Assembly (NCBI RefSeq): GCF_004403395.1
Contig: NZ_SOGN01000063.1
Span: 1 to 64,000, forward strand
Source of the DNA: Cryobacterium cheniae
GTDB taxonomy: Bacteria > Actinomycetota > Actinomycetes > Actinomycetales > Microbacteriaceae
Length of the DNA stretch: 64,000 nt
Reading direction: 5' to 3'
Shown in pieces: positions 48,387-64,000 of this stretch. The notes beneath the pieces were generated by a model. It was not told where the DNA came from and ran no database searches. It worked only from the letters and a program-made list of their open reading frames with translations. Each line of letters begins with the position of its first letter. Within the stretch, counting starts at the first letter, position 1. The position numbers and the translations under genes are program-made.

Positions 48387-49042
48387 ACGGTGGTGCAGAC
48401 GCAGAGCTCGTTGCCCTCGGGGTCGGCCAGCACCCACCACTCGGGGGCGTGCTCGTCGGTGAGGACGTCGCCCCCTGCGGCGATGATGTCCTGCACCCGG
48501 GACTCGGCGTCGATGGTGGGCACGTACACGTCGAGGTGGATGCGGTTGCGCTCGGTGCGCACGATGTCCATGCTCTGGAACCAGATCCGCGGGCCCTGGC
48601 CGGATGGATCGACGAGTTCGGTCTCGCCCTCGCTGTCGACCTCCACATAGCCGAGGCCCACCCGCCAGAACGGCCGGATCGCCTCGGCGTCGGTGCAGTC
48701 GATCGCCACGTCGTAGCGGGCCGGTTGCACCGGCGCACGGTCGGCGCCCTGCGCATCCGCCAGCTCCTGGATGCGCAGCGCGAGCCGAAGGTCGCGGTCG
48801 GTCACGCCGCCGGCATCGTGGGACGAGAGGCGGAAGCCGACCCGGCCGTAGCCGATCCGCACGTCGGGGTGGTGATTCATCGCATCCGCCGCCTCGGCCG
48901 CCTGGTCGACCAGGCGCACCGCCGACGCGAAATCCCGGGTCGTGAACGAGCCGTGCAGGGTGCCGTCGAGGTGCACGAAGGCGCCGCCGGCAAGCACGGA
49001 TTCGGTGTCGATCGGGGTGAGGAGGGTGCCGGGTGATTTCAT
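48380..49042 (-). CDS. Pterin-4a-carbinolamine dehydratase-VOC domain fusion
   Basis: Protein of 220 residues with two domains. Residues 1-100 resemble pterin-4a-carbinolamine dehydratase, with the histidine-containing ADAMNHHPDVRIGYGRVGFRL signature followed by SHD and an acidic residue. Residues 110-220 form a glyoxalase/VOC-like domain (YDVAIDCTDAEAIRPFWR, WWVLADPEGNELCVCT). Fusions of this kind occur in actinobacteria, but the substrate is not known. It sits between the mcc-type operon and the bkd operon, on the same strand as bkd. No pterin-dependent hydroxylase gene is in the window, so a pterin recycling role is doubtful. Confidence 0.83.
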   Translation of the reverse strand: MKSPGTLLTPIDTESVLAGGAFVHLDGTLHGSFTTRDFASAVRLVDQAAEAADAMNHHPDVRIGYGRVGFRLSSHDAGGVTDRDLRLALRIQELADAQGADRAPVQPARYDVAIDCTDAEAIRPFWRVGLGYVEVDSEGETELVDPSGQGPRIWFQSMDIVRTERNRIHLDVYVPTIDAESRVQDIIAAGGDVLTDEHAPEWWVLADPEGNELCVCTTVY

Positions 49043-49106
49043 CCCCTCACTCTGCTGCGTGTCCGAAACGCCGTCAAGGCGCGCGCGGCAGTGGACTGGC
49101 GGCGGA

Positions 49107-50459
49107 CTAGAGGAGGGCGAGGGCGCGCGCCGGGTTGGCGAGGATGCCGGCGACGTCGGTCAGGAACCGGGCCGCCTGCTCGCCGTCGACGAGCCGGTGA
49201 TCGAAGGCGACGCTGAGGGTGACCACCTGCCGGAGTGCGATCTCGCCGCGATACTCCCACGGCCGCGGCGCGATCGCCCCCAGCGCGAGGATCACGGCCT
49301 CCCCCGGGGGCAGGATCGGCGTGCCCGCATCGATTCCGAAGGAGCCGATGTTGGTGATCGAGATCGTGCCGCCGCCGAGGGCGGCCGGGCTGGTCGCGCC
49401 CGCCCGCGCTGCACGGGTCAGCTCGGCGAGCGCCGCGGCGAGGTCGGCGAGGCCCAGCCGTTCGGCATCCGGGATGCCGGGCACGAGCAGCCCCCGCGGC
49501 GTGGCGGCGGCGATGCCGAGGTTCACGTAGTGGAACTGCACGATCTCTCCGGCCGCCTCGTCCCAGCGGGTGTTCACCTCGGGGGTGCGGGCGACGGCGA
49601 GGCAGAGCGCCTTCGCGACGACGGCCAGGATGCCGATGCGCGCGTCGGCGAACTCCCGGTCGCGTTTGAGCGCGTCGATCAGCTCGATCGTCGGCGTCAC
49701 GTCCACGGTCAGGAACTCCGTGGCGTGCGGCGCGGTGAAGGCGCTTCGCACCATGGCGGCGGCGGTGTGCTTGCGCACGCTCCGGATCGGGCTGCGGGTC
49801 TCCCGTGGGCCGGTCACGGATGCCGGGGGCCGAGCGGCCGGTTCGACGCGCCCGGGGTCGGCACCGCGGTCGGCACCGGGGTCGGCACCGGGGGAAGCCG
49901 GGGCAGCGGACGCCGCGGAGGCCTCCACGTCCTCCCGGGTGATGAGGCCGGTCGGACCGGTCCCGGTCACCTCGGCCAGGGCGACACCCAGGGTGCGGGC
50001 CAGTGCGCGCACCGGCGGCGTGGATCGAGGCCGCTCCCCGGCTGCCGGGGCCGGGGCCGGGGCAATGACCCGGCTCAGCGCATCCGTCGCCCCCGCCCGG
50101 GCCCGTCGCTGCGGCCGTCCGCTCCGCTCGGCCGCGGCGCCGTACCCCACGAGCACGGCCTCCCGTTCCGGCTCGCGAGAAGGGGCAGCACCAACGGAGG
50201 GGGCAGCACCAGGGGCAGGGGCGTCGACCTCGAAGGAGACGATCGGGTCACCCACGCGCACGGTGGTGCCGGGCTGCTGGTGCAGTTCGGCGACCACACC
50301 CGCGAAGGGCGACGGCAGCTCCACGACCGCCTTGGCCGTCTCGACCTCGGCGATGAGCTGGTTGAGTGTCACCGTGTCGCCCGGCGCGACCCGCCAGGCC
50401 ACGATCTCCGATTCGGTCAGTCCCTCGCCAAGGTCGGGCAGTTTGAAGACCTTGATCAT
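49107..50459 (-). CDS. bkdC: Branched-chain 2-oxoacid dehydrogenase E2 (dihydrolipoamide acyltransferase)
   Basis: E2 subunit of 450 residues. It has one lipoyl domain (lipoylated Lys43 in ETAKAVVE), a peripheral-subunit-binding domain (PVRALARTLGVALAEVTGTGPTGLI region) and a catalytic domain with His421 in DHRLVDGE. A 12-base tandem repeat (49854-49889) in the linker encodes GAD-P/R units. The ATG overlaps the E1-beta stop by four bases. No E3 gene is in the window, so dihydrolipoamide dehydrogenase must come from elsewhere. The BKD rather than PDH assignment rests on context. Confidence 0.92.
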   Translation of the reverse strand: MIKVFKLPDLGEGLTESEIVAWRVAPGDTVTLNQLIAEVETAKAVVELPSPFAGVVAELHQQPGTTVRVGDPIVSFEVDAPAPGAAPSVGAAPSREPEREAVLVGYGAAAERSGRPQRRARAGATDALSRVIAPAPAPAAGERPRSTPPVRALARTLGVALAEVTGTGPTGLITREDVEASAASAAPASPGADPGADRGADPGRVEPAARPPASVTGPRETRSPIRSVRKHTAAAMVRSAFTAPHATEFLTVDVTPTIELIDALKRDREFADARIGILAVVAKALCLAVARTPEVNTRWDEAAGEIVQFHYVNLGIAAATPRGLLVPGIPDAERLGLADLAAALAELTRAARAGATSPAALGGGTISITNIGSFGIDAGTPILPPGEAVILALGAIAPRPWEYRGEIALRQVVTLSVAFDHRLVDGEQAARFLTDVAGILANPARALALL

Positions 50460-51505
50460 CGTCGTCTCCCCAGCACGCGGTCGACGCCGTCGAGCATGCG
50501 GTCGAGGTCGGGCAGGTGGTGGCTCTCCAGCTTCGCCGGCGGGTAGGGGATGTCGAACCCGGTGACCCGCACCGGAGCGGCCTCGAGGTAGTCGAAACAG
50601 CGCTCGGTGACCTCGGCGATGATCTCGCCGCCCAGCCCGCCCGAGCGGGCGGCCTCGTGCGTCACCACGAGCCGACCGGTTTTCCGAACGGATGCCTCGA
50701 CGGTGCCGTAGTCGATGGGCGAGAGCGAGCGCAGGTCGATGACCTCGATCGAAATGCCCTCGTCGGCGGCGGCGAGCGCGGCATCCGTCGCCGTGGACAC
50801 CAGCGCTCCGTAGGCGAGGAGCGTGACATCGGTGCCGGCGGCCACCACCCGGGCGCTCTCGAGCGCGGCGCCGGGCTGCGGGGACACCGGGCCGGCGACG
50901 TGGTACCGGCGCTTGGGCTCGAAGTAGAGCACCGGGTCGTCGGAGGCGATCGCCTTCTGGATCAGGCTGTAGGCGTCCTGCGGGTTGGAGACCGCGACCA
51001 CCCGGAGGCCCGACGTGTGCGTGAAGTAGGCCTCGGGCGATTCGGAGTGGTGTTCGGCGGCGCCGATGCCGCCGCCGAACGGCACCCGGATGGTGATGGG
51101 CATGCGCACGGCCCCTTGGGTGCGGTAGTGGAACCGGGCCACCTGGCTGACGATCTGGTCGAAGCCGGGGAAGATGAAGCCGTCGAACTGGATCTCGCAG
51201 ACCGGGCGGTAGCCGCGGTAGGCGAGCCCCACGGCGGTGCCGATGATCGCGGACTCGGCCAGCGGGGTGTCGACGACCCGGTTGGGCCCGAACTCGGCGA
51301 GCAGGTCGCTGGTGACCCGGAACACTCCGCCGAGGGCGCCGATGTCTTCGCCGAGGAGCACCACCTTCGGATCGTCGAGCATCGCCTGCCGCAGCCCGGC
51401 GTTGATCGCCTTGGCCAGGGTCAGGGTCGTCGTCTCGGTGAGCGGCACGGGCGTGGCGCCGTTCGCGCTGGGAGCCGGGGAACTCCGGACGGTTTCGATG
51501 GTCAT
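50456..51505 (-). CDS. bkdB: 2-oxoacid dehydrogenase E1 beta subunit
   Basis: E1-beta of 349 residues from the ATG at 51505. It has the usual beta-subunit features: LLGEDIGALGGVFRVT, DTPLAESAIIGTAVG, and FGGGIGAAEHHSESPEAYF. It forms the thiamine-diphosphate site with E1-alpha, whose stop overlaps the start by one base (TGATG). The three-gene order alpha-beta-E2 matches M. tuberculosis bkdABC. The complex decarboxylates branched-chain 2-oxoacids to acyl-CoAs, feeding the neighbouring dehydrogenase and carboxylase. Confidence 0.93.
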   Translation of the reverse strand: MTIETVRSSPAPSANGATPVPLTETTTLTLAKAINAGLRQAMLDDPKVVLLGEDIGALGGVFRVTSDLLAEFGPNRVVDTPLAESAIIGTAVGLAYRGYRPVCEIQFDGFIFPGFDQIVSQVARFHYRTQGAVRMPITIRVPFGGGIGAAEHHSESPEAYFTHTSGLRVVAVSNPQDAYSLIQKAIASDDPVLYFEPKRRYHVAGPVSPQPGAALESARVVAAGTDVTLLAYGALVSTATDAALAAADEGISIEVIDLRSLSPIDYGTVEASVRKTGRLVVTHEAARSGGLGGEIIAEVTERCFDYLEAAPVRVTGFDIPYPPAKLESHHLPDLDRMLDGVDRVLGRRR

Positions 51506-52614
51506 CAGGCCTTTCCTCCGGTCAGGTCGTAGCTCGCCAGATAGGCCGCGTACTCCGCCCGTTGGCGGTCGACGCCGGCGTGCGGGGTGGCGTAGACGTT
51601 GGCGAGCACGGTCAACGGCTCCGGGTCCGGCAGGCCGATGCAGCCGGCGCGCAGCTCCGCGGCCGTGGCGTCGGCTCGGGCCTGCGCCTCGGACTCCAGC
51701 TCGGGCGTGAACAGGCCGAGGGAGTCGAGCAGCCGCCCCAGGCGCAGGATCGGGTCCTTCGTCGCCCACTCCTCGAGCTCGGCCGCCGGCCGGTAACGGG
51801 TGGGGTCGTCCGCCGTCGTGTGCGGGCCCATCCGGTAGGTGACGGCCTCGATGAAGGTGGGCCCTCCCCCGGTGCGGGCCCGGTGCAGGGCCTGCCGGGT
51901 CGCGGCCGTCACGGCCAGGATGTCGTTGCCGTCGATGCGGAGGCTGGGGATGCCGAACCCGGGGGCGCGGCCGGCGATGCTGGCCCGGGCCTGCAGCCCG
52001 ACCGGCTCGGAGATGGCCCAGTGGTTGTTCTGGCAGAAGAAGACCACCGGCGCCTGGAAGCTGGCCGCGAACACGAGCGCCTCGTTGACGTCGCCCTCGC
52101 TGGTCGCGCCGTCGCCGAAGTAGGCCACGGCCACCGAGTCCGCGCCGTCGAACCGGGCTCCCATCGCCCAGCCCGTGGCGTGCAGGGTCTGCGCCCCGAT
52201 GATGATGCTGGGCGTCGCCATCTTGTGCACCAGCGGGTCCCAGCCGGATTGCGCGGTGCCGCGCCACACCCGGAGGATGTCCGTGGGCGCCACGCCACGG
52301 CACCAGGCGACCGCGTTCTCGCGGTAGCTGGAGAAGACGAAGTCGTCGGCGCGGAGAGCGCGGGCCGAGCCGATCTGCGCCGCCTCCTGACCGAGCAGCG
52401 GCGGCCAGAGTCCCAGCTCGCCCTGGCGCTGCAGCGCCGTGGCCTCGGCATCGATCCGGCGCACCACGACCATGTCCTGGTAGAGCGCCGCGAGGTCGGC
52501 CCCGGTCACATCCGCCACCCACGGATCGAGATCGGCGTCGGCCAGCCGCACCCCCTCGGGGCTCAGCAGCTGCAAAAGAACGTCGGGGGTCTCCCCGGTG
52601 TGGACAGTGTGCAT
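51505..52614 (-). CDS. bkdA: 2-oxoacid dehydrogenase E1 alpha subunit
   Basis: E1-alpha of 369 residues from an ATG at 52614 with GGGAG seven bases upstream. The thiamine diphosphate motif GDGATSEGDVNEALVFAAS is intact, as are the upstream GQEAAQIG and the TYRMGPHTTADDP loop typical of branched-chain enzymes. The open frame continues 29 codons upstream across the control region and is not used. It is the first gene of the bkd operon and divergent from an Lrp/AsnC regulator. Confidence 0.93.
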   Translation of the reverse strand: MHTVHTGETPDVLLQLLSPEGVRLADADLDPWVADVTGADLAALYQDMVVVRRIDAEATALQRQGELGLWPPLLGQEAAQIGSARALRADDFVFSSYRENAVAWCRGVAPTDILRVWRGTAQSGWDPLVHKMATPSIIIGAQTLHATGWAMGARFDGADSVAVAYFGDGATSEGDVNEALVFAASFQAPVVFFCQNNHWAISEPVGLQARASIAGRAPGFGIPSLRIDGNDILAVTAATRQALHRARTGGGPTFIEAVTYRMGPHTTADDPTRYRPAAELEEWATKDPILRLGRLLDSLGLFTPELESEAQARADATAAELRAGCIGLPDPEPLTVLANVYATPHAGVDRQRAEYAAYLASYDLTGGKA

Positions 52615-52688
52615 CAAACGCTCCCAGCGTCGTTGCCGAAGTTGTTGAGAGCGTACGATTCCGCGACACGCAGCACAACCATGACGAA

Positions 52689-52713
52689 GAATATTGAGCA
52701 TTTTGCCCTATTC
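52689..52713. promoter_or_regulatory. Possible Lrp-type site between bkdA and lrp
   Basis: An AT-rich stretch with GAATA and TATTC as inverted halves 15 bases apart lies in the divergent promoter region. Lrp/AsnC proteins favour AT-rich dyads of this size. The arms are only five bases, so support is weak. Confidence 0.35.
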
Positions 52714-52745
52714 ATGGGGCACCCTGCATGCTACCGTCGGGCATT

Positions 52746-53279
52746 ATGCACAGTCTGGACAAAGTCGACCTGCAGTTGCTCAACGCCCTGTGCGCCGACC
52801 CGCGGAGCACGTTCGTCGCGCTCGCCCAGCAGCTGCACCTCTCCCGCAACACGGTTCAGGCGCGCATGGCCAGGCTCGAGGAATCGAACGCGTTCCTCTC
52901 CTTCGACCGCCGCATCAACCCGGTCGCACTGGGCTACCCGCTGACGGCCTTCATCGAGGTGCACGTGCAGCAGAAACGCCTCGCCCAGATCGTGGCCGAG
53001 CTCGCCCGCATCCCGGAGATCGTGCAGGCGCACGGCATGAGCGGGGCGACCGACATCCTGGTGCGCGTGGTGTGCGCGGATGCCGACGACCTGTTCCGCA
53101 TCGACGGCACCATCCTCGCCTGCGAGGGTGTGGATCGCACCGAGACGTCCCTGGCCATGGGCGAGCTGATCCCCTACCGGGTCACCCCCCTGCTGGAGCG
53201 CACCGGGCGCCGGCAGGGCTCCGCCCCCGGCCTGTCCGACCCCGGCTCCTCCCCCTTCCCCGACGCGATGATCCCGTGA
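52746..53279 (+). CDS. Lrp/AsnC family transcriptional regulator
   Basis: Protein of 177 residues with an N-terminal AsnC-type helix-turn-helix (STFVALAQQLHLSRNTVQARMARLEE) and a C-terminal RAM ligand-binding domain. It is divergent from bkdA, so branched-chain amino acid or 2-oxoacid control of that operon is likely. This matches BkdR regulators in other bacteria. An ATG at 52746 is preferred; one six codons upstream is also possible. The C-terminus has an extra proline/serine-rich tail of about 25 residues. Confidence 0.88.
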   Translation: MHSLDKVDLQLLNALCADPRSTFVALAQQLHLSRNTVQARMARLEESNAFLSFDRRINPVALGYPLTAFIEVHVQQKRLAQIVAELARIPEIVQAHGMSGATDILVRVVCADADDLFRIDGTILACEGVDRTETSLAMGELIPYRVTPLLERTGRRQGSAPGLSDPGSSPFPDAMIP

Positions 53280-53295
53280 TGCGGGCGGCCCGCCG

Positions 53296-53928
53296 ATGAC
53301 CCCGCCGTCGTTGACGCCCCTGCCGATGTTCCCGCTGGGCTCGGTCCTGTTCCCCTATATGCCGCTGCAGCTGCGGGTGTTCGAGGACCGCTACCTGGTC
53401 ATGCTGTCGCGCATCCTCAAAGACGAGCCGGCCGAGTTCGGCGTGGTGCTGATCGAACGCGGCCAGGAGGTCGGCGGCGGCGAGCGGCGGTTCCGGTACG
53501 GGACCGTGGCCCAGATCACCGAGCTCGAGGCCTCCGAGGGCTTCATCGGGGTGACCGCCCAGGGAGAACGCCGGATCGAGGTCATCGACTGGCTGGCCGA
53601 AGACCCGCACCCCCAGGCCACGGTGCGCGACCTCGCCGTGCTCGACTGGGACGACGACCTGCTGCCGCTGCGGGAACGGGCCGAACAGGCGGTGCGACGG
53701 GCCCTGGCCCTGGCGAGCGAATTCGCCGACCAGCTCTGGCCGTCGACGGTGGAGCTGTCCCGGGATCCGACGGCGGCCGCCTGGCAGATCGCCGGCATCG
53801 CTCCACTGGGCCCACTGGACCAGATCGAACTGCTGCGGTCGACCTCGATGGAACGACTCCTGACCGCGGTGATCGATTACACCCAGGACGCCGTGGACTC
53901 CCTGAGCACACCCTGGCCCGAAGAATGA
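53296..53928 (+). CDS. Lon-like N-terminal (substrate-binding) domain protein
   Basis: Protein of 210 residues made only of the LON N-terminal domain. It starts PLPMFPLGSVLFPYMPLQLRVFEDRY, which is typical, and has a helical C-terminal half. There is no AAA+ or protease domain. Stand-alone proteins of this kind are widespread in actinobacteria with no settled function; a role as a protein-binding adaptor is a guess. It follows lrp by 16 bases, and the AT-rich promoter of the next operon begins just after its stop. Confidence 0.88.
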   Translation: MTPPSLTPLPMFPLGSVLFPYMPLQLRVFEDRYLVMLSRILKDEPAEFGVVLIERGQEVGGGERRFRYGTVAQITELEASEGFIGVTAQGERRIEVIDWLAEDPHPQATVRDLAVLDWDDDLLPLRERAEQAVRRALALASEFADQLWPSTVELSRDPTAAAWQIAGIAPLGPLDQIELLRSTSMERLLTAVIDYTQDAVDSLSTPWPEE

Positions 53929-53939
53929 CCCGAATCTAT

Positions 53940-53968
53940 TTGATAAATTTATTATATAGGTATATAAA
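53940..53968 (+). promoter_or_regulatory. Near-consensus promoter of the hydrogenase-related operon
   Basis: TTGATA (53940-53945) and TATAAA (53963-53968) are separated by exactly 17 bases, close to the ideal housekeeping promoter. The start site should be near 53975, giving a leader of about 29 bases. GGAG lies seven bases before the TTG start of the first gene. The AT content over 53935-53978 is far above that of the surrounding sequence. Confidence 0.75.
53952..53967. promoter_or_regulatory. Dyad overlapping the -10 of the hydrogenase-related operon
   Basis: TTATATA-gg-TATATAA is a perfect seven-base inverted repeat covering the spacer and -10. An ArsR-type dimer bound here would block RNA polymerase. 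The neighbouring Rv0081-like regulator is a candidate. Symmetry in AT-rich sequence is easier to get by chance. Confidence 0.45.
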
Positions 53969-54003
53969 GAAGTAATGATGTTTCGTGTCCCCTGGAGCCT
54001 GAG

Positions 54004-54489
54004 TTGAGCGTCAAACGACTCACGAATCTCATCCGCACCAGTGGGCGCATCGCCGAACCGGCCCCGCCGGCCCCGGCCCTGCTCCCCGGCGCCGAGGTCT
54101 TCGGCGGCAGCGTGCAGGTGCGCTTCATCAACGCCGGCAGCTGCAACGACTGCGCGATGGAGGTGCAGAGCGCCTTCGGCCCGGTCTACGACGTCGAGCG
54201 CTATGGCATCCGTCTGGTCGCGTCCCCCCGTCACGCCGACGTGCTCGTGATCACGGGCGCCGTCACCCGCAACCTGATCGAACCGCTGCGCCGCACCATC
54301 GACGCCACGCCGACCCCCCGCTTCGTGATCGCCGTCGGCGACTGCGCCATCACCGGCGGTGTCTTCGCCGGCGGCTACGGCGTCGCCGGGCCCGTGTCCG
54401 ACTTCGTGCACGTCGACCTGTCCGTGCCGGGCAACCCGCCCGAGCCGGCCGTCATCGTGGCGGCCCTGCGCCGGATGACCGGCCGATGA
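54004..54489 (+). CDS. NuoB/HycG-like iron-sulfur subunit with altered cluster site
   Basis: Small subunit of 161 residues, homologous to NuoB and HycG. These bind the proximal 4Fe-4S cluster. Cys47 and Cys50 (GSCNDCAMEV) and Cys114 (VGDCAITGG) are kept. The fourth ligand, in the PGCPP motif of relatives, is Asn144 here (VPGNPPEP). The cluster may have Asn or another ligand, or be a 3Fe type or absent. The TTG start has GGAG seven bases upstream. Its size matches M. tuberculosis Rv0082. It overlaps the next gene by four bases. It starts the six-gene operon. Confidence 0.88.
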   Translation: MSVKRLTNLIRTSGRIAEPAPPAPALLPGAEVFGGSVQVRFINAGSCNDCAMEVQSAFGPVYDVERYGIRLVASPRHADVLVITGAVTRNLIEPLRRTIDATPTPRFVIAVGDCAITGGVFAGGYGVAGPVSDFVHVDLSVPGNPPEPAVIVAALRRMTGR

Positions 54490-56504
54490 CCGCCCTCGAA
54501 GCCGGGATGCTCGGCCAGACGCTGCTGCTCGTGCTCGCCGTCGCCGCGGCCCTGCTCACCCCGACTCCCTGGCGCTCCCGGGTCAGCGGAACCTTCTGCA
54601 CCCTGCTCGCCGCGGCCGGCATCGTCACCGGCGCGCTCGCCCTCTCCGGCGGAACCGGGTCTCTGAGCATCCCCACCGCCCTTCCGCTGGACCCGCTCGT
54701 GCTCTCCCCCGACCGCCTCGGCGGCCTGGTCATGGTGGTCGTCTCCTCGGTCGGCGTGCTCGCCTCCCTGTTCGGGATCGGCTCGGCCCGCGTGGCCTCG
54801 GCCTCCCGCACCGCGTGGCTGTCGATGGCCGTGTTCCTCTGCGGAATGCAGCTGGTGCCGGCCGCCACCGACGTCGTGACGTTCCTGCTGTTCTGGGAGA
54901 TCATGACGCTCGGCTCGACGGCGCTGCTGCTGGCCCACCACGCCACCCGCGGCACGGTCGCCTCCGCCCTGGTCTGGTACTCGGCGATGTCGCAGCTGAG
55001 CTTCTTCTTCGTGCTGGCCGGCTTCGCGATGCTCGCCGGCCAGGCCGGCGGCACCGGGTTCGCCGACCTCGCCACGATCGATCCCTACTCCTGGCAGGCG
55101 AGCGTGGCCTTCCTGCTGCTGCTGCTCGGCTTCGGCGGCAAGGCGGAACTCGTTCCCCTGCACGTCTGGGTTCCCCGGGTGCTGCCCGAGGCTCCGGGCC
55201 ACGTCGCCGCCGCGATGAGCGGCGCGATGGTCAACATCGGCGTCTACGGCGCCCTCCTCGTTCTCGTCCGGTTGCTGCCGAACGGCCCGGCCTGGTGGGG
55301 CGTGCTGATCATGGTTGTCGGCGGGGTCTCCGCGCTCTACGGGATCCTGCAGGCCTCGGTGGCGAGCAATCTCAAGGTGCTGCTGGCCTACTCCACGACC
55401 GAGAACATGGGGCTGGTGTTCCTGGGGCTCGGGGCATCCGTTCTGCTGCGCGCCGACAACGCCACGGCCGCGGCCGACGCCGCCCTGGTCGCCGCCCTGC
55501 TGCTGATGCTCAGCCACGCCGCCTTCAAGTCCACCCTGTTCCTCGGCGCCGGAGCCGTGGCCCGCGCGGCCGGCGAGATGAACCTCGACCGGCTCGGGGG
55601 GCTCGGCAGCCGGATGCCGTGGACCGCCGCCGCGTTCGGCGCGGCCGCGATGGGCGCCGCGGCCCTGCCCGTCACGAGCGGGTTCGTCGCCGAGTGGATG
55701 CTGCTGCAGTCCCTGATCCACGGATCCCGGGTCGACGGGGAGGTCGTCTCCGTCACGGCATCCGTGGCCATGCCGCTCGCGGTCGCCGTGATCGCCCTGA
55801 CCGCCGGGCTGGCCCTGCTCACCTTCGTCAAGGCCTACGGGATCGCCTTCCTGGCCCGCCCCCGCTCCCCGGAAGCCAAACTGGCGGTCGAGGTGCCCGT
55901 CATCATGCGCATCCCGCTCGTGCTCGGCGCCCTCCTCGTGGTCGGGCTCGGCCTGCTGCCCGGCCCCCTCGCCGTGGCCGTCGGCGGGGCCGTGGGCCCG
56001 GAGTTCACCCCCGACGTGCGCACCATCGGCCTCGCGGGCGTCGACGCCCGCGGCATCGACGCCGTGCTCGACCCCACCACTTTCGTGGTGCTGGCCGGCC
56101 TGCTGCTCGTGCCCGTGCTGATCGCGCTGTTCGTCTCCGCCCGCCGCCACCCCACCCGCACCTCGCCGCTCCCCTGGGCCGGCGGCGGGTCCCGGCTGCG
56201 GCCCCGGATGCAGTACACCGCCACCTCGTATGCCGAACCGCTGGTGCGCGTCTTCGACGACGTGCTCCGGCCCTCCCGCGACGTGGAGGTCACCCATGTG
56301 GGCGAATCCCGCTACCTGGTGGAACGCGTACATGTGGAACAGACGGTGTCCGACGTGGTCGAAACCCGGCTCTACCGCCCGGTGCTGAACCTGATGCAAC
56401 GAGCAGGCATTCTGGCCCGACGCGCGCAGAACGGCAGCATCCATCGCTACCTGTCCTATTCCTTCGTCGCCCTGTTGCTGGTTCTGATCGTGGTGTCCCT
56501 GTGA
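54486..56504 (+). CDS. HyfB/NuoL-like proton-translocating membrane subunit
   Basis: Multi-pass membrane protein of 672 residues of the antiporter-like family. The ion-channel residues are preserved: Glu138 (LLFWEIMTLG), Lys219 (GGKAELVPLHVWVPR) and Lys297 (ASNLKVLLAYSTTENMG). The C-terminal region resembles HyfB/HycC rather than NuoL, ending in a last membrane helix. The size is close to Rv0083. It overlaps its neighbours by four bases on each side. It should couple redox change to ion movement in the complex. Confidence 0.88.
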   Translation: MTALEAGMLGQTLLLVLAVAAALLTPTPWRSRVSGTFCTLLAAAGIVTGALALSGGTGSLSIPTALPLDPLVLSPDRLGGLVMVVVSSVGVLASLFGIGSARVASASRTAWLSMAVFLCGMQLVPAATDVVTFLLFWEIMTLGSTALLLAHHATRGTVASALVWYSAMSQLSFFFVLAGFAMLAGQAGGTGFADLATIDPYSWQASVAFLLLLLGFGGKAELVPLHVWVPRVLPEAPGHVAAAMSGAMVNIGVYGALLVLVRLLPNGPAWWGVLIMVVGGVSALYGILQASVASNLKVLLAYSTTENMGLVFLGLGASVLLRADNATAAADAALVAALLLMLSHAAFKSTLFLGAGAVARAAGEMNLDRLGGLGSRMPWTAAAFGAAAMGAAALPVTSGFVAEWMLLQSLIHGSRVDGEVVSVTASVAMPLAVAVIALTAGLALLTFVKAYGIAFLARPRSPEAKLAVEVPVIMRIPLVLGALLVVGLGLLPGPLAVAVGGAVGPEFTPDVRTIGLAGVDARGIDAVLDPTTFVVLAGLLLVPVLIALFVSARRHPTRTSPLPWAGGGSRLRPRMQYTATSYAEPLVRVFDDVLRPSRDVEVTHVGESRYLVERVHVEQTVSDVVETRLYRPVLNLMQRAGILARRAQNGSIHRYLSYSFVALLLVLIVVSL

Positions 56505-57451
56505 CCGGCGCCGCGGCGATCATCATCGCCCTCGTCCAGCTGGTGCTGTTCGTGCTGCTCGCCCCCGTGCTGATCGGCGTGATCCGCCAGGTGCGGGCCC
56601 GCCTCGAGGGCCGGGCCGGCTCCGGCATCTGGCAGCCGTGGCTTGATGTGCGCAAGCTCCTGTCGAAGAACCCGGTGCGCGCCGCCGACAGCAGCTGGAT
56701 GCTCGCGGCCGGCCCGGTCACCCTCCTGGTCTCCAGCCTGCTGCTCTGCGCCCTGCTGCCGCTGGTCGGCACCCTGCCGCTGCCGCTGATCCCCAGCGAC
56801 CTGTTCGTGATCGTCTCCGTCATGCTGATCGGCGTGGTCGCCCTGGCCCTGGTCGGCCTCGACGCCGGCACCGCGTTCGGCGGGATGGGGTCCAGCCGGC
56901 ACATGACCGTCGCCGCCCTGGTCGAACCGACGCTGCTGCTCGCGGTCTACGCCCTCTCCATCCCGGCCGGCACCTCCACCCTCTCGCTGATCGTGGAGAC
57001 CCGCCTCGCCAACCCGGCCGTGATCATCTCCCCGGTCAGCCTGCTGGCCATGGTCGCGCTGGCCATCGCCATCATGGCGGAGACCAGCCGGCTGCCGGTC
57101 GACAACCCGTCGACCCACCTCGAACTGACCATGCTGCACGAGGCCATGGTGCTGGAAGCCTCCGGCCGCGACCTGGCCTGGCTCGAACTCGGTTCCTGGC
57201 TCAAGCTGGCCGCCCTGCTCGGCCTGCTCAGCAACCTGATCGTGCCGTGGGGCATTGCGACGGACTTCTCGGTACTCGGCGTGCTGGTCGGCGTGGGCAC
57301 CGTCACCGTGAAGATCCTGCTGCTGGGCGTCGTGCTCAGCGCGGGGGAGGTCTTCCTGGCCAAGGCGCGGCTGTTCCGCGTTCCCGAGCTGCTGGCGGGG
57401 TCGTTCGCCCTGGGCCTGCTGGCCGTCACCGCTTCCTACCTGGTCGCTTAG
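56501..57451 (+). CDS. HycD/NuoH-like membrane subunit
   Basis: Multi-pass membrane protein of 316 residues from a GTG that overlaps the preceding stop (GTGA). It shows the NuoH/HycD landmarks: a DVRKLLSKNPV loop, AETSRLPVDNPSTHLELTMLHEAMVLE, and charged residues inside membrane helices. This subunit holds the quinone- or cluster-adjacent chamber joining the hydrophilic and membrane arms. It is the same length as M. tuberculosis HycD (Rv0084). Nine bases separate its stop from the next gene. Confidence 0.9.
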   Translation: MTGAAAIIIALVQLVLFVLLAPVLIGVIRQVRARLEGRAGSGIWQPWLDVRKLLSKNPVRAADSSWMLAAGPVTLLVSSLLLCALLPLVGTLPLPLIPSDLFVIVSVMLIGVVALALVGLDAGTAFGGMGSSRHMTVAALVEPTLLLAVYALSIPAGTSTLSLIVETRLANPAVIISPVSLLAMVALAIAIMAETSRLPVDNPSTHLELTMLHEAMVLEASGRDLAWLELGSWLKLAALLGLLSNLIVPWGIATDFSVLGVLVGVGTVTVKILLLGVVLSAGEVFLAKARLFRVPELLAGSFALGLLAVTASYLVA

Positions 57452-57459
57452 GAGCATCC

Positions 57460-58116
57460 GTGTTCACCACCATTTACCCGCAGCTGATCGGCCTCTGCAC
57501 CGGAACCCTGCTGCTCACCAGCGCCCTGATGGTCTGGCGGCACTCGCTGCTGGCGTCGATCCGACTGCTCAGCGTGCAGGGCTTCGCGCTCGCCGCGCTG
57601 GTCGCCGTGATCGGTGTGGAGGAGGGCGAGGTCGAGGTGATCCTCGTCGCCGTGCTCGTATTGCTGGTCAAGGGCGTGGCCTTGCCCTGGGTGCTCGCCC
57701 GCGAGACCCACGCCACCACGCGAACGGATGAGGCGCCGCGCCTCAACCCGACGGCGGCCCTCCTGACCGTGGCGCTTCTGACCATCCTCAGCTACGTCGT
57801 CGCCAGCCGGCTCCTCGCCGGCATCGACGGCGTCTCGGCCCACGCGGCCCCGATCGGCCTCGCGATGGTGCTGATCGGCTTTCTGCTGCTGGTCACCCGC
57901 CGGCAGGCCGGATCGCAGCTGATCGGCTTCCTCGTGCTCGACAACGGGATCGCCACGGTCGCGTTCCTGACCTCCGGCGGAGTGCCGCTGTTCCTCGAGC
58001 TCGGCATCTCCCTGGACGTGCTCCTGGTCGTCGTGATCCTCTACGTCTTCGCCGGCCGTATGCGCAGCAAGTTCGGCAACACCGAGATCGATCAGCTCAG
58101 AAAGTTGCACGACTGA
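57460..58116 (+). CDS. HyfE/HycP-like membrane subunit
   Basis: Membrane protein of 218 residues from a GTG with AGGAG six bases upstream. About six hydrophobic helices are seen and no cofactor motif. A C-terminal hydrophilic tail (NTEIDQLRKLHD) is typical of the HyfE group, whose N-terminal part relates to NuoK. Its counterpart by order is HycP (Rv0085). The stop overlaps the next start by one base. Confidence 0.85.
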   Translation: MFTTIYPQLIGLCTGTLLLTSALMVWRHSLLASIRLLSVQGFALAALVAVIGVEEGEVEVILVAVLVLLVKGVALPWVLARETHATTRTDEAPRLNPTAALLTVALLTILSYVVASRLLAGIDGVSAHAAPIGLAMVLIGFLLLVTRRQAGSQLIGFLVLDNGIATVAFLTSGGVPLFLELGISLDVLLVVVILYVFAGRMRSKFGNTEIDQLRKLHD

Positions 58117-59681
58117 TGTCCTTCGCCCTCTGGATTCCGCTGGCCATCCCGGCCCTCCTCGCCCTGCTCAGCCTGCTGAGCCGCTCCCCCGCGCTGCGCC
58201 GGCTCAGCCCGGTCGCCTCCAGCGTCGCCGTGCTCGGCTCCGGGCTGCTCCTGGTGAGCGCCGCACTCGCGGACCAGGTGCCGACTCTGGGCGGCGGGCT
58301 GCTCCGCGCAGACGCGCTGAGCGCCTACATGCTCACCGTGGTCGGCGCCGTCGGCCTGGTCTCGACCTGGGGCGGGCTCGGCCACGACAGCACCGTACCC
58401 GCCCGGTTCGCCGGCTCCTACGACGCCCTGATCTCGGTGTTCCTGGCCGCGATGAGCCTCGCGGTGCTCGCCGACAACATCGGCCTGATGTGGGCCGCGG
58501 TCGAGGCCACCACCATCGCCACGGCCTTCCTGGTGGGCCACCACCGCACCCCCCGATCGTTGGAGGCCGCCTGGAAGTACGTCATCCTCGGCTCCGTCGG
58601 CGTGGCCATCGCGCTGCTCGGTATCGTGCTGATCTATGCCGCGTCGCGCGGCACGGGCGCGGCGACCCTGTCCTGGCTGGTGCTCAGCCAGGCCGACCTG
58701 CCCCTCGATCCCGCGCTGATCCGCGCCGGCGGCGCCCTCGCCGTGCTCGGCTTCGCCACCAAGGCCGGACTCGCCCCGATGCACAGCTGGCTGCCCGACG
58801 CGCACAGCCAGGCCCCCGCCCCCGTCTCCGGCCTCATGTCGGGGGTGCTGCTCGCGGTCGCCCTCTACGCCATCCTGCGCATCCAGACCATCACCGACGC
58901 CGTGATCGGGCCGGACTTCCTGCGCATCATGCTCAGCGTCGGCGGGCTGCTCTCCCTGTTCGTGGCGGCGGCGCTGCTGATCCGCCAACGTGACTTCAAA
59001 CGGATGCTGGCCTACTCCAGCATCGAGCACATGGGCATGATGGCCGTCGGCGCGGCCATCGGCGCGGCGGCACTGCCGGCCGTGCTGCTGTACGTGCTCG
59101 GCCACGGGCTGACCAAGGCGACGCTGTTCGTGCTCTCCGGCCGCATCCTCGAGGTCGAGGGCACCCCGAAGATCGACGCCGTGCGCGCCCTGCTCGTGCG
59201 GCGGCCGGGACTGGCCGTGCCGTGGCTGATCGCCATGGCCGCCCTGATCGGGTTCCCCCCGTTCAGTATCTTCTTCTCCGAGGTCGGCATCATCGTGGCC
59301 GGCTTTTCGGCCGGCATGGGCGCGGTGGTCGGCATCGCGCTGGTGCTGCTGCTCGTCATCTTCGCCAGCCTCACCCGGCTGACGGTGGCCATGACGATCG
59401 GGGCGCCTGGGGCCGCCGCCCCGGCGGCGGTCGCCCCGGCGGCGGTCGCGCCCGCTGCGGCCCCGACCGGAGTCGTCCCCGTGGTCGACGCCGGCGCATC
59501 CGTCACCCTGGCCGACGCCGAGCCGCACCCGGACGTGCCGCTCGTGCCGGACCGGTCGGCGCACGGGCCGATGCTGCCGCTCATCCTGGCCCTCGCCACC
59601 ACCGCGGTGGTGGCCTTTATCGCCGAGCCGGTCGGCACGCTCCTGACGCGTGCGGCCGAGGTTCTGGGAGGAATCCAATGA
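58116..59681 (+). CDS. HyfF/HycQ-like proton-translocating membrane subunit
   Basis: Second antiporter-like subunit, 521 residues. Glu130 (AAVEATTIATAF), Lys216 (FATKAGLAPMHSWLPDAHSQAP) and Lys295 (RDFKRMLAYSSIEHMG) are preserved. A long non-conserved loop rich in alanine and proline lies near residues 430-490, partly from a 15-base repeat. Its counterpart is HycQ (Rv0086). The last bases overlap the next start (ATGA). With the HyfB-like protein it makes two predicted ion channels. Confidence 0.88.
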   Translation: MSFALWIPLAIPALLALLSLLSRSPALRRLSPVASSVAVLGSGLLLVSAALADQVPTLGGGLLRADALSAYMLTVVGAVGLVSTWGGLGHDSTVPARFAGSYDALISVFLAAMSLAVLADNIGLMWAAVEATTIATAFLVGHHRTPRSLEAAWKYVILGSVGVAIALLGIVLIYAASRGTGAATLSWLVLSQADLPLDPALIRAGGALAVLGFATKAGLAPMHSWLPDAHSQAPAPVSGLMSGVLLAVALYAILRIQTITDAVIGPDFLRIMLSVGGLLSLFVAAALLIRQRDFKRMLAYSSIEHMGMMAVGAAIGAAALPAVLLYVLGHGLTKATLFVLSGRILEVEGTPKIDAVRALLVRRPGLAVPWLIAMAALIGFPPFSIFFSEVGIIVAGFSAGMGAVVGIALVLLLVIFASLTRLTVAMTIGAPGAAAPAAVAPAAVAPAAAPTGVVPVVDAGASVTLADAEPHPDVPLVPDRSAHGPMLPLILALATTAVVAFIAEPVGTLLTRAAEVLGGIQ

Positions 59682-61228
59682 CGAACGCGAACCCGGTCCC
59701 GGCCGCCGCCCCCGAGGTGCGCACGCTCACGCGCGAGGAGCTGCGGGGCGAAGCCGCCACGCTGCTGACCGAGGGCAACCGGCTCGCGCTGGTGGCCGGC
59801 CACGACGACGGTGACGGGCTGCGCGTGGTCTACTCCTTCGCGGCCGTGTTCCCCCGGCGCCAGGTCGACCTCGTCGTGCCTGTTCCCTACGACGATGCCT
59901 GGGTTCCGAGCCTGGCCGACCTCTCGTTCCCGGCCGGCAATTTCGAGCGCGGCACCCGGGACCTGTTCGGCGTGCGGCCGGCGAACCACCCCCAGCCCTA
60001 CCGGCTGGTGCGCCACGGGCACTGGCCCCGCGGCTGGTACCCGATGCGCAAGGATGCGCGGGTCACCCCCGAATTCGAACCCGACGTCGAGTCGTTCCCG
60101 TTCGTGGAGGTCGAGGGCCCCGGAGTCTACGAGATCGCGGTCGGCCCCATCCACGCCGGCATCATCGACCCCGGTCATTTCCGTTTCTCCGTGGTCGGCG
60201 AGACCATCGTGCGGATGGAAGCCCGCCAGTGGTACATGCACCGCGGCGTCGAGCGGCTGTTCGAGGGTCGCCGGCCCGGTGACGGCATCGAGCTGGCCGA
60301 GCAGATCGCCGGCGACACCGTCATCGGCCACACGCTGGCCTACACGATGGCGATCGAGGCGGCCTCCGGCATCTTGGTCCCCGAACCCGACCGGATGCTG
60401 CGTGCTCTGCTCCTCGAACTCGAACGCATCTACAACCACGTTTCCGATCTCGGTTCGCTGGCCAACGACGTGGGGTTCAGTGTCGTGAATTCGCACGCCC
60501 AGCGGGTGCGCGAAACGCTGCTGCGCATCAACAAGACCGTCACCGGCCACCGGTTCCTGCGCGGGGCCCTGTCGGTGGGCGGGGTGAGCGTGCTCGCTGT
60601 GCCCGATCCCGGCGATCTCCGGCGCGTGGCCGCCGACGTGCAGGAGATCATCGCCATCACCCTCGGGCACGCGATCGTGCGGGACCGGTTTACCGGCACC
60701 GCCCCGCTGCCCACCGGCCTGGCCGAGGCCATGGGCACGCTGGGCTACGTGGCGCGGGCATCCGGTATCGATGCCGACGCCCGTCGCGACCACCCCTTCG
60801 TCGATCTGGGCGCGCACTTCCACGTGGTCACCGACACCGGCGGCGACGTGCTCAGCCGCTACCGGGTACGCGCGGGCGAATTCGAGGTGTCCATAGCGGT
60901 GGCGATCGACCTGATCGGCCGGCTCGGCGCGCACCGCGGCGACGCGGCCGCGCTGCCTTCTGGGGTGTCGGCTCGGGCCATGACGGCGACGGCGGCCGCT
61001 GCGTCCACGGCTGCCCGGAGCGGCCTCGCCCTCGTGGAGGGCTGGCGCGGAACCATCTGCCACCGGGTGGAACTGGGGGCCGACGGCGCCATCACCCGGC
61101 TCAAGGTCGTCGACCCGTCCTACTTCAACTGGCCGGCGCTGCCGGTGGCCCTGGCGGAGACGATCGTGCCGGACTTCCCGCTCGTGAACAAGAGCTTCAA
61201 CCAGTCCTACGCCGGCAACGACCTGTAG
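59678..61228 (+). CDS. HycE/NuoCD-like large subunit lacking nickel ligands
   Basis: Protein of 516 residues from an ATG with GGGAGGAA upstream. A NuoC-like N-terminal domain (about 1-120) is fused to a NuoD/HycE-like domain. In [NiFe] hydrogenases two C-x2-C motifs hold nickel. Here the first is A-G-D-T (211-214, before GHTLAYTMAIE) and the second is S-Y-F-N (481-484, in VDPSYFNW). Hydrogenase activity is therefore not expected. NuoC fusion and length match M. tuberculosis HycE (Rv0087). The reaction is unknown; electron transfer to or from a quinone-like or other acceptor is possible. Confidence 0.9.
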   Translation: MTNANPVPAAAPEVRTLTREELRGEAATLLTEGNRLALVAGHDDGDGLRVVYSFAAVFPRRQVDLVVPVPYDDAWVPSLADLSFPAGNFERGTRDLFGVRPANHPQPYRLVRHGHWPRGWYPMRKDARVTPEFEPDVESFPFVEVEGPGVYEIAVGPIHAGIIDPGHFRFSVVGETIVRMEARQWYMHRGVERLFEGRRPGDGIELAEQIAGDTVIGHTLAYTMAIEAASGILVPEPDRMLRALLLELERIYNHVSDLGSLANDVGFSVVNSHAQRVRETLLRINKTVTGHRFLRGALSVGGVSVLAVPDPGDLRRVAADVQEIIAITLGHAIVRDRFTGTAPLPTGLAEAMGTLGYVARASGIDADARRDHPFVDLGAHFHVVTDTGGDVLSRYRVRAGEFEVSIAVAIDLIGRLGAHRGDAAALPSGVSARAMTATAAAASTAARSGLALVEGWRGTICHRVELGADGAITRLKVVDPSYFNWPALPVALAETIVPDFPLVNKSFNQSYAGNDL

Positions 61229-61381
61229 GGCGCTGCCGCGCGCGGCTGGAGTCGCGGCATCCGTCACCCGGCAACATCCGTCGCGGCGCAGGTTGTGGAC
61301 GCCGGCGCACGCTAGAACATGCGCCCGCTTCCACAGGGTGCGCCGCGAGGCGGGCCGACGGATGTGAGACGGTGGCCGAGG

Positions 61382-61723
61382 CTACGGCGTGTCCTGCTCG
61401 ATGGTGCGGAGCAGGGCGTTCGAGTCCTCGAGGCTGGTCACGAGCATCCGTTTGGAGATGGCCAGAAGCTCGGCGACGTCCGGGTCCCGCAGGGCGTAGA
61501 AGATGGTGTTGCCGTCGCGCCGGGTGATGACCACGCCGGCACGGCGAAGGACCCCCAGCTGCTGGGACAGATTCGACAGTTCGGCGCCGAGCACCTCGGC
61601 AAGGCTGCCGACCGAGCGCTCCCCGCCGACCAGCTGCTCCAGAACCTGCACCCGCAACGGATGCCCGAGAGCCTTGAACAGGTCAGACTTCAATTGGGCC
61701 ATGGGTAGTCCGGTCGCTGACAC
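61382..61723 (-). CDS. ArsR family regulator, Rv0081-like
   Basis: Winged-helix regulator of 113 residues. The recognition helix region reads SNLSQQLGVLRRAGVV, near-identical to the same stretch in M. tuberculosis Rv0081 as recalled. That gene precedes the Rv0082-Rv0087 operon and is a hypoxia-responsive hub. No metal-binding cysteine motif of classical ArsR (CVC) is seen. A GTG at 61723 lies seven bases after the -10, so translation may be leaderless; an ATG at 61702 is the alternative. It converges with the hydrogenase-related operon. Confidence 0.9.
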   Translation of the reverse strand: MSATGLPMAQLKSDLFKALGHPLRVQVLEQLVGGERSVGSLAEVLGAELSNLSQQLGVLRRAGVVITRRDGNTIFYALRDPDVAELLAISKRMLVTSLEDSNALLRTIEQDTP

Positions 61724-61729
61724 CGTCTG

Positions 61730-61758
61730 ATCATATCGCTAACTTGTAATACTTTCAA
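61730..61758 (-). promoter_or_regulatory. Consensus promoter of the ArsR-type gene
   Basis: On the minus strand TTGAAA (61758-61753) and TATGAT (61735-61730) are 17 bases apart. The expected transcription start falls on or next to the GTG start codon at 61723, suggesting a leaderless mRNA, a common form in actinobacteria. Confidence 0.75.
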
Positions 61759-61798
61759 CTAGGTGCGGGCCGCGACCTCGCCCTCGGGCGACGGCGTG

Positions 61799-61862
61799 AC
61801 TGTTGCCGTTCCGGACAAGTGTTGCCGGCGTGCGGGCAACAGTTGTCCGAATCGGCAACAGT
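61799..61862. repeat. Intergenic palindromic repeat element, copy B
   Basis: A 64-base hairpin with arms of about 28 bases and three mismatches lies between the ArsR gene promoter and the pnp terminator. Its right arm contains CAACAGTTGTCCGAATCGG, the core of copy A at 36575-36654. A second CAACAGTTGT begins the arm end, so the motif occurs twice in tandem within this arm. Confidence 0.8.
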
Positions 61863-61881
61863 TGTCGCCACCGGCATGCAA

Positions 61882-61913
61882 AAAGCCCGCCCTGCCGTAG
61901 CAGAACGGGCTTT
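61882..61913 (-). terminator. Intrinsic terminator of pnp
   Basis: On the minus strand, AAAGCCCG and CGGGCTTT form an eight-base stem (61913-61906 with 61889-61882) followed by a run of Us. It lies about 50 bases after the pnp stop. It is the clearest intrinsic terminator in the window. Confidence 0.85.
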
Positions 61914-61961
61914 CCGTCTAGCCGACTAACCTGGCGAGAGGTTGTCGGTAGATCTAGCGGA

Positions 61962-64000
61962 CTACGCCTCGGTCGAAACCGGTGCGTCCTCGGTGCCGGC
62001 CTCGGCCGACTCGTCGAGGACCGGGGCGAGCGACAGCTTGCCACGGTCGTCAATCTTGGTGATCTCTACGAGGACCTTCTGGCCCACGCCGAGCACGTCT
62101 TCGACGTTCTCGACCCGCTTGCCACCGGCGAGCTTGCGCACCTCGCTGATGTGCAGCAGTCCGTCCTTGCCCGGGAGCAGGGAAACGAAGGCGCCGAACG
62201 CGGCGATCTTGACGACGGTTCCGAGGAACTGCTCGCCGATCTCCGGGTTGGTCGGGTTCGCGATGGCGTTGACCTGGGCGCGAGCGGCCTCGGCCGACGG
62301 TCCGTCGACGGCGCCGATGTAAACCGTGCCGTCTTCCTCGATCGAGATGTCGGCACCGGTCGTGTCCTGGATCGCGTTGATCGTCTTGCCCTTCGGGCCG
62401 ATCAGCTCGCCGATCTTGTCGACGGGGATCTGCACGCTGATCACGCGGGGCGCGGTCGGTGCCATCTCGTCGGGACGGTCGATGGCGGCGTTCAGCACGG
62501 CCAGGATGGTCGCGCGGGCGTCCTTGGCCTGGGTGAGCGCGCCGGCGAGAACGGATGCCGGGATGCCGTCGAGCTTTGTGTCGAGCTGGATCGCGGTGAC
62601 GAACTCGCTCGTGCCGGCGACCTTGAAGTCCATGTCGCCGAGGGCGTCTTCGGCGCCGAGGATGTCGGTGAGAGCCGCGTAGCGGGTCTGGCCGTCAACG
62701 GTGTCGGAGATGAGGCCCATGGCGATGCCGGCAACGGGTGCGCGCAGCGGCACCCCGGCGTTGAGCAGCGACAGGGTCGAGGCGCAGACGGAACCCATCG
62801 AGGTGGATCCGTTGGAGCTGAGCGCTTCGGAGACCTGACGGATGGCGTAGGGGAACTCCTCCCGCGTCGGCAGCACGGGGACCAGGGCACGCTCAGCGAG
62901 CGCTCCGTGGCCGATCTCGCGGCGCTTCGGCGTTCCGACCCGGCCGGTTTCACCGGTCGAGTAGGGCGGGAAGTTGTAGTTGTGCATGTAGCGCTTCTTG
63001 GTGACCGGGCTCAGGGAGTCGATCGTCTGCTCGAGCTTGAGCATGTTCAGCGTGGTGACACCCAGGATCTGGGTCTCGCCGCGCTGGAAGATCGCCGAAC
63101 CGTGGACGCGCGGGATGATGGCGACCTCGGCGTCGAGCGGGCGGATGTCCGCGAGCCCCCGACCGTCGATGCGGATGCCCTCGTTGAGGACGCGTGAGCG
63201 CACGACGAGCTTGGTGACCGACTTGTACGCGGCGGACACCTGGTTGTTCGCGCCGGCGTCGAGCCGGCCGGCGTCGACCTGGGCAGCGATGGCTTCCTTG
63301 ACGGATGCCTTGAGTGCGTCATCCGCATTCTGGCGTTCGATCTTGTCGGCGATCTGGTAGACACCCTTGAGCTGGTCGTACGCGAGAGCGGCGACGGCGT
63401 CGTAGGTGGCCGGCTGGTAGGACGGGAACACCGGGTAGGCGCCGGTCGGCTTGGCGGCCGAGGCGGCAACCTTCTGCTGCGCTTCGATGAGCTGCTTGAT
63501 GAAGGGCTTCGAGGCTTCGATGCCCTCGGCGATGACCTCTTCGTTCGGCTTGATGGCGCCGCCCTTGATCAGGTCCCAGGCGTTGTCGGTGGCTTCGGCT
63601 TCGATCATCATGATCGCGACATCCTGCGCGCCGTTGGCGTCGGTCACCACGCGGCCGGCGACGACCATGCTGAAGACGGCGTCAACGATCTGCGAGTGCT
63701 TCGGGAAGGCAACCCACTGGCCGGAGCCGTTCTCGTCGGGGATCAGGGCGACGCGAACGCCACCGATCGGGCCCGAGAAGGGGAGGCCGGCGAGCTGGGT
63801 CGACATCGACGCCGCGTTGATCGCGAGCACGTCGTAGTACTCGTCGGGCGCGATGGCCAGAACGGTGACGACGACCTGGATCTCGTTGCGGAGTCCGTCG
63901 ACGAACGACGGGCGCAGCGGCCGGTCGATCAGACGGCAGGTGAGGATCGCCTCGGTCGACGGGCGGCCTTCGCGACGGAAGAAGCTGCCCGGGATACGTC
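61962..64000 (-). CDS. pnp: Polynucleotide phosphorylase, 5' end beyond window
   Basis: 3'-5' exoribonuclease/polymerase; the visible 679 codons lack the N-terminus. The RNase PH domain segments [20 protein letters not shown] and [15 protein letters not shown] are present. The second core domain, a KH domain ([12 protein letters not shown]) and a C-terminal S1 domain ([19 protein letters not shown]) follow in order. In Streptomyces this gene lies next to the M16 peptidase gene, which here is 28 kb to the left on the same strand. Its 3' side has a strong terminator. Confidence 0.96.

Follow-up and report, generated by a model that had tools for sequence, protein, structure and literature searches.

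What is a membrane complex of the hydrogenase kind for, once the last place at which it could recognisably hold a redox cofactor has degenerated? The question arises from a 64,000-nucleotide stretch of the genome of Cryobacterium cheniae, a member of a cold-soil genus (RefSeq assembly GCF_004403395.1, contig NZ_SOGN01000063.1, positions 1 to 64,000; hereafter the window), in which six genes at 54004-61228, all open and uninterrupted, make up what is, to judge by their sequences, an operon for an Ehr-type (hydrogenase-related) membrane complex, predicted to consist of a cytoplasmic cap (NuoB- and NuoCD-like) joined to a membrane arm that contains two antiporter-like subunits. In the part of PMC6349859 on which we draw, Ehr complexes are said to be without nickel and iron ligands and are suspected of coupling redox reactions to charge transport. 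An earlier description of this DNA, made from the letters alone (the sequence-only reading), had taken the complex for a probable ion pump with an unknown redox partner; it did not point out that the fourth cysteine of the N2-type cluster in NuoB is, by the aligned copies, lost throughout the clade to which the window belongs. With this sole cofactor site degenerate (three of four cysteines here, one of four in a sister branch), that view is weakened, and we incline, if only slightly, to a largely redox-free or redox-gated ion translocator that is moving away from the redox step or is already free of it.

A single, degenerate cofactor site

The NuoB-like small subunit (161 residues; 54004..54489, plus strand; TTG start with GGAG ahead) has the ligand motifs SCNDC, GDC and PGNPP, which put Cys47, Cys50, Cys114 and Asn144 at the four cluster positions. 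Asn144, codon AAC at 54433..54435 on the plus strand, stands where relatives have the fourth cluster cysteine; in our alignments MbhJ and HycG have four cysteines, the last of them within PGCPP, and the part of the formate hydrogenlyase structure paper used here has the proximal cluster of HycG in the place of complex I N2 (PMC9474812). Could another subunit supply a cofactor instead? In the fused NuoC-NuoD-like large subunit (516 residues; 59678..61228, plus strand) both nickel motifs are without cysteine (LAEQIAGDT and SFNQSYAG; longer stretches LAEQIAGDTVIGH and SFNQSYAGNDL), despite a match of residues 189-255 above the Pfam NiFeSe_Hases cut-off (30.8 versus 25.8 bits). The sequence-only reading had named overlooked cysteines as a refutation, and inspection of both nickel motifs found none. 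The five subunits other than NuoB contain five scattered cysteines in total, with no pair among them, and the operon has no iron-sulphur subunit besides NuoB. Because the nickel motifs lack cysteine and the cysteines of the other subunits are scattered, the NuoB site is the only recognisable cofactor site of the operon, and because this one site is degenerate, ordinary electron delivery through N2 is doubtful. A replacement cysteine elsewhere was rejected after a scan of the cysteine columns of the five other subunits, in which those common to the clade were column 57 of NuoCD, not a cysteine in the window, and the remainder in membrane subunits.

Spread of the loss among relatives

How far does the loss extend? 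Relatives were drawn from a NuoCD survey of the family (matches in 11 of 299 genomes, of which 8 were close and 3 distant), a HycD scan of named genomes (the best 80 of 443 loci kept), and surveys of the order (396 genomes) and the class (394 genomes). In the latter two, Ehr-type matches scored above 600 bits, a few fell at 177-444 and complex I-like ones at about 150 bits or less; outside the family, 7 of 8 high-scoring matches from the order and 20 of 27 from the class were fetched, as were eleven weaker matches from both. The resulting 120 NuoB rows, less 7 duplicates, give 113 distinct ones, loci with no NuoB on the contig being left uncounted. Four cysteines are present in 83 (among them E. 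coli HycG and HyfI), three together with Ser, Asn or Thr in 20, and one in 3; six, termed D-type below, have an Asp-rich or mixed site with no cysteine, and in the last row, E. coli NuoB, the tandem cysteine pair aligns with a gap. The window's clade accounts for all 23 rows of the three-Cys and one-Cys kinds, each without the fourth cysteine, while outside it 83 of 90 rows have all four and the remainder are the D-type rows and E. coli NuoB. Within the clade, a sister branch with Agromyces has lost two further cluster cysteines and keeps one of the four.

Among the named relatives retained in the HycD scan, the nearest are Cryobacterium, of the family Microbacteriaceae, with HycD 94% identical to that of C. 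breve. The gene was found in 39 of 57 genomes of the genus (18 gave no match), and the fourth position is Ser in 23 copies, Asn in 12 and Thr in 3, plus Thr in one frameshifted copy that was read in two pieces (loci L216 and L247, from one genome, are counted once). A sequencing error as the cause of Asn144 is thereby rejected, the fourth cysteine being missing in 39 of 39. A second sample of the family, searched with a NuoB profile, matched 15 of 398 genomes: 11 belong to the window's clade, 3 are D-type and the last is a metagenome-assembled genome, G1084, which is 84% complete and has on a 5.3-kb contig (L271) a four-Cys NuoB with 55.6% identity. The generalization that all Microbacteriaceae lack the fourth cysteine is therefore rejected. 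The four-Cys Ehr operon of G1084, with an ArsR gene upstream, may be a separate acquisition or contamination; it is not among the tree rows.

The first tree was built on NuoCD, not on NuoB, the bearer of the trait, from 71 of 119 usable rows; the four-Cys rows were a selection, and eleven short or broken rows were left out, one of which, L036, belongs to the window's clade. In it the clade (22 rows) is one branch with support 100/99, nested among four-Cys Ehr rows, and the one-Cys branch inside it has 100/100. The sequence-only reading had staked its case on the large subunit not falling inside hydrogenases or complex I; it nests with actinobacterial rows of Ehr type and separately from E. coli HycE, HyfG and NuoCD (L110-L112), the sole named references in the tree. 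Two loci with long-branch NuoCD-like genes (L185, L186) have an ArsR match nearby and no NuoB found within 18 kb. Two clade copies are frameshifted, nuoCD of L036 near 7625 (Cryobacterium sp. MLB-32) and nuoB of L257 (genome G1038), by sequencing error or decay.

Conservation and selection

If the cluster is compromised, is the rest of the complex still maintained? Columns conserved in 95% or more of the four-Cys rows (74 rows, of which 71-74 were usable by gene, and only 41 for HyfF) were compared with the 23 clade rows. Kept in at least 90% of the latter are 42 of 57 such columns in NuoB, the smallest share of the six subunits, 103/118 in HyfB, 76/84 in HycD, 22/24 in HyfE, 85/90 in HyfF and 129/142 in NuoCD. 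Columns that were replaced (kept in at most 10%) number five in NuoB (Ser46, Gly49, Glu51, Val83 and the fourth ligand itself), three each in HyfB and NuoCD, one each in HycD and HyfF and none in HyfE. One of those in NuoCD is Arg209, which is Gln (as in the window) or Ala in 23 of 23 clade rows and aligns with Arg84 of Thermus thermophilus Nqo4, a position that presumably neighbours N2 in complex I. In the antiporter-like subunits, the residues matching E144, K233, K312, K352 and E407 of E. coli HyfF and E140, K219, K299, K350 and E405 of E. coli HyfB are kept in 96-100%.

Ratios of nonsynonymous to synonymous substitution (dN/dS, NG86), taken over nine pairs and seven genes, range from 0.006 to 0.23, all 63 values being well under 1; NuoB gives 0.10-0.11 in the one-Cys pairs. 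For one of these pairs the synonymous distances are near or above 1 and therefore uncertain. By this measure all seven genes are under purifying selection, and the cap is thus preserved even though it lacks a proper four-Cys site.

What might the cap be doing?

Perhaps the answer lies in a cap that has changed its task. On the reading to which we incline, ions (H+ and/or Na+) would still move through the HyfB/HyfF/HycD arm, and the cap would no longer pass electrons via a normal [4Fe-4S] N2 cluster; most likely it would have turned into a gate or sensor, responding to a ligand, a metal or the redox state, on an Mrp-like ion translocator, and the complex would be made upon release of a cysteine-free ArsR repressor. 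The sister branch that includes Agromyces has probably lost the cluster, and in Cryobacterium the remaining three cysteines may still hold a reduced or altered one.

Several observations weigh against this account. The role of gate or sensor is itself a conjecture. A plain Mrp-like function would be partly redundant, because the genome (3.2 Mb in 71 contigs, completeness 100) encodes two further antiporter-like (Proton_antipo_M) proteins together on another contig, C63, in open frames of 985 and 587 residues, which can be read as a putative Mrp. The sequence-only reading held that both antiporter-like channels are kept, and this stands for the key Glu and Lys residues and for a largely intact arm; it does not hold for His326 of HyfF and Arg298 of HyfB, replaced by Tyr and Val in 23 of 23 clade rows, and in HyfB His233 and Asp295, both replaced in the window, are kept in only 17% and 65% of them. 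Replaced NuoB columns lie more often within 4 residues of a ligand (4/18) than elsewhere (1/39; one-sided Fisher p 0.03), in a test that is weak and partly circular, and with the ligand column left out the figures become 3/17 versus 1/39; since p is then 0.08, the enrichment is only a hint. Our weighing of the readings is unchanged by this weaker statistic, because the loss of the ligand and its spread are unaffected. Asn, Ser and Thr, moreover, can in principle ligate iron, and the other three cysteines are kept in 39 of 39 genus copies, as expected if a three-Cys cluster persists.

These last two points lead to the strongest alternative, which we regard as possible and rather less than probable, namely that in Cryobacterium the cluster is altered and not lost; it would be of the [3Fe-4S] kind, or of the [4Fe-4S] kind with Asn, Ser, Thr or water at the fourth iron, its potential would be changed or an iron site left open, and redox chemistry would continue with an unknown partner. 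How much does the retention of three cysteines tell? As 84 of the 161 NuoB columns do not vary among the 20 three-Cys rows, retention of the three cysteines by chance has a p of about 0.14. In favour of an altered cluster, the AlphaFold model of NuoB predicts a confident fold (mean pLDDT, the predicted local distance difference test, 89.1 over the whole protein), and possible partners exist in NarG and three FdhF/YdeP-family oxidoreductases on contigs C42, C63 and C68 (L258-L261), all unlinked to the operon; the statement in the sequence-only reading that there is no formate dehydrogenase thus holds for the operon and needs this amendment for the genome. An altered cluster is harder to reconcile with a fourth position that varies among N, S and T, with a sister branch that lost two more cysteines while its NuoB stayed under the constraint given above, with the accompanying loss of the aligned NuoCD arginine, and with the absence of a donor subunit from the operon. 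An Ehr complex of the ordinary kind, one that has a standard N2 cluster and pumps ions with the unknown redox partner first proposed, agrees with subunits and a regulator that match those of four-Cys actinobacterial Ehr complexes, and we hold it to be very unlikely given that the fourth ligand is absent in every clade member seen. That the operon is a decaying relic heading for loss, as its patchy presence in the genus (39 of 57 genomes) and the frameshifted copies in L036 and G1038 might suggest, is scarcely credible with all six window genes open and every dN/dS value well under 1.

Other lineages without the cluster cysteines

Did the loss happen only once? The D-type loci (L022, L023, L024, L182, L183, L184), of which three come from the same family and three from elsewhere in the class, have none of the four cluster cysteines; in 6 of 6 the N-terminus of NuoB keeps CP and CxxCxxC, which could hold one other cluster, and in L022-L024 the gene order is hycD-hyfE-hyfF-nuoCD-nuoB-hyfB. 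A second, divergent Ehr-like operon (L247:13469-19892 and L248:4105-4656) was seen here in one genome, that of Cryobacterium sp. Y50; it is convergent to the first kind, with about 4.2 kb between the nuoCD ends, the four ligand positions of its NuoB read D/T/D/D, and Rfam gave no match. In a 41-row tree, change between four cysteines and fewer requires three steps, and forcing the 13 reduced rows into one group is rejected by the approximately unbiased (AU) test (p-AU 3.9e-16). A single common loss of the cluster cysteines is accordingly rejected, the exact places of the losses being unsure from long branches: both tree runs warned of long branches meeting, and the D-type rows and the second Y50 copy are unsurely placed, with nearby support of 89-94 or lower in part.

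All four D-type operons with upstream sequence have a fluoride riboswitch match ahead of hycD, over the gathering score in L022, L024 (where the match overlaps a predicted open reading frame start) and L182 and just below it in L023 (33.3 bits versus 34). Fluoride riboswitches occur ahead of formate-hydrogenlyase-like genes, a placement for which we found no confirmation in print. The neighbours in L023 include enolase, CrcB, pyrophosphatase, two MutS_V genes and a Usp gene.

It is conceivable, and to our minds somewhat short of an even chance, that three actinobacterial lineages, one of them under fluoride-riboswitch control, independently gave up the last redox cofactor and kept the cap-plus-antiporter frame as a redox-free transporter with the cap as its gate; here the third of these lineages is known from a single genome, and Cryobacterium may have undergone only part of the loss. 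Just how the transfer of electrons powers ion pumping by complex I and its kin is still debated, and these loci suggest that pumps of this type can abandon electron chemistry in the course of evolution. The natural series of four, three, one and no cluster cysteines in an otherwise conserved frame lets one test how the membrane arm works when the redox step is missing, and it is a caution that labels such as hydrogenase or formate hydrogenlyase do not suit operons of this kind.

Operon layout, regulator and surroundings

The sequence-only reading described six overlapping genes. Their number and exact lengths stand; overlaps of 1-4 nt occur at four of the five junctions, and hycD and hyfE are separated by 8 nt. 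Between nuoB and nuoCD lie, all on the plus strand, a hyfB-like antiporter-type membrane subunit (672 residues; 54486..56504), a hycD/nuoH-like membrane subunit (316 residues, GTG start; 56501..57451), a hyfE-like membrane subunit (218 residues, GTG start; 57460..58116) and a hyfF-like antiporter-type membrane subunit (521 residues; 58116..59681), in which Tyr326 takes the place of the His of four-Cys relatives. Pfam matches above cut-offs are Oxidored_q6, Proton_antipo_M (in the HyfB- and HyfF-like proteins), NADHdh, and Complex1_30kDa with Complex1_49kDa; the HyfE-like protein has no Pfam match above cut-off and was recognised through NCBIfam alone. The NCBIfam names, hydrogenase-4 subunits B, E and F and Nuo subunits, each come from matches below the curated cut-off.

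Behind the operon and convergent to it stands an arsR-type regulator gene (113 residues, no cysteine; 61382..61723, minus strand), whose nearest solved relative is Rv0081 (6jmi, E 6.8e-29), as the sequence-only reading had anticipated. This arrangement recurs in 19 of 20 three-Cys loci; the regulator is upstream of the operon and codirectional with it in 55 of 78 four-Cys loci (none found in 16 of 78) and in 3 of 3 one-Cys loci. A simple promoter scan gave a promoter-like site ahead of the regulator (61758-61730, minus strand) and nothing at 53940..53976, ahead of nuoB, where the sequence is AT-rich, contains imperfect inverted repeats (53943-53976 and 53936-53959) and could be a promoter or operator. 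An Rfam scan of positions 44000-64000 yielded nothing over thresholds and two weak matches, neither of them a riboswitch by the operon. An inverted repeat at 61799-61862 (31-nt arms, 87% complementary) lies between the regulator and what we take to be a polynucleotide phosphorylase-like gene, and near it is a terminator-like hairpin at 61886-61904.

Elsewhere in the genome, a fifth Proton_antipo_M match (C47:9630-10286; L109, L188) lies in a 527-residue open frame apart from both the C63 pair and the operon. SulP-family anion transporter genes stand near the operon in L020 (1664-3352) and L097 (14210-15895, directly behind a second Rv0081-like ArsR gene), and also in L072, L077, L094 and L099. 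SulP was rejected as a partner: these are 6 of 129 loci, duplicates and short contigs included, and the matches in the window's own genome are on other contigs.

Comparison with known systems

To which known system does the complex come closest? With respiratory complex I it shares homologues of NuoB, NuoC, NuoD, NuoH and NuoL/M/N; it differs in that the operon has no NuoE/F/G/I-like gene (these were not searched one by one genome-wide), and Tyr87 and His38 of T. thermophilus Nqo4, presumably of importance for quinone, align with Gly and Ile of its large subunit. Complex I itself is rejected as an identity, since PF00346 (Complex1_49kDa) and PF01058 (Oxidored_q6) match only this locus genome-wide and there is no second NuoB or NuoD. 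E. coli hydrogenase 4 and formate hydrogenlyase have HyfB-, HycD-, HyfE-, HyfF-, HycE- and HycG-like subunits in common with it, and HycE is the best solved relative of the large subunit (7z0s, E 2.2e-54); the window operon differs in having no nickel ligands, ferredoxin-type subunit or formate dehydrogenase and in its degenerate HycG-type site. A true group 4 [NiFe] hydrogenase is rejected, neither CxxC nickel motif being present and HypA and HypD giving 0 matches in the genome (other hyp genes were not searched), in line with the earlier remark that nickel maturation genes are missing. With the Mrp antiporter it shares two Proton_antipo_M subunits and most of the key Glu and Lys residues, and it differs from it by the NuoB/NuoCD cap and by an operon that is not MrpA-G.

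It is among Ehr complexes that it finds its place, as the sequence-only reading had proposed: Pfam content, cysteine-free nickel motifs and the tree position of the large subunit agree, and a single operon encodes the NuoB-, NuoCD-, HycD- and antiporter-like subunits together. HydDB, in the part of PMC5037454 used here, separates Ehr as not metabolising H2. The four-Cys N2-type site, usual in Ehr relatives and not named as defining in the part of PMC6349859 cited above, is what the window NuoB lacks; titles and abstract openings yielded no published report of Ehr complexes without an N2 site or in Cryobacterium, an earlier remark being possible. The closest counterpart is the actinobacterial Ehr of the Rv0082-Rv0087 type, an operon that is described together with its control by Rv0081 in the part of PMC6901956 consulted. 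Our comparison with M. tuberculosis rests on the mycobacterial relatives L078, L101 and L103. Shared are the six kinds of subunit, an Rv0081-type ArsR regulator and the absence of nickel cysteines, with the gene order of L078 (and, for nuoB-hycD-nuoCD, also of L101 and L103). The NuoB proteins of these three relatives have all four cysteines, whereas the window's clade has three or one, has lost Arg209 of NuoCD and His326 of HyfF, and in its three-Cys loci mostly has a convergent regulator. The natural series described above can be set beside the mycobacterial Rv0082-Rv0087 complex, which is still poorly understood.

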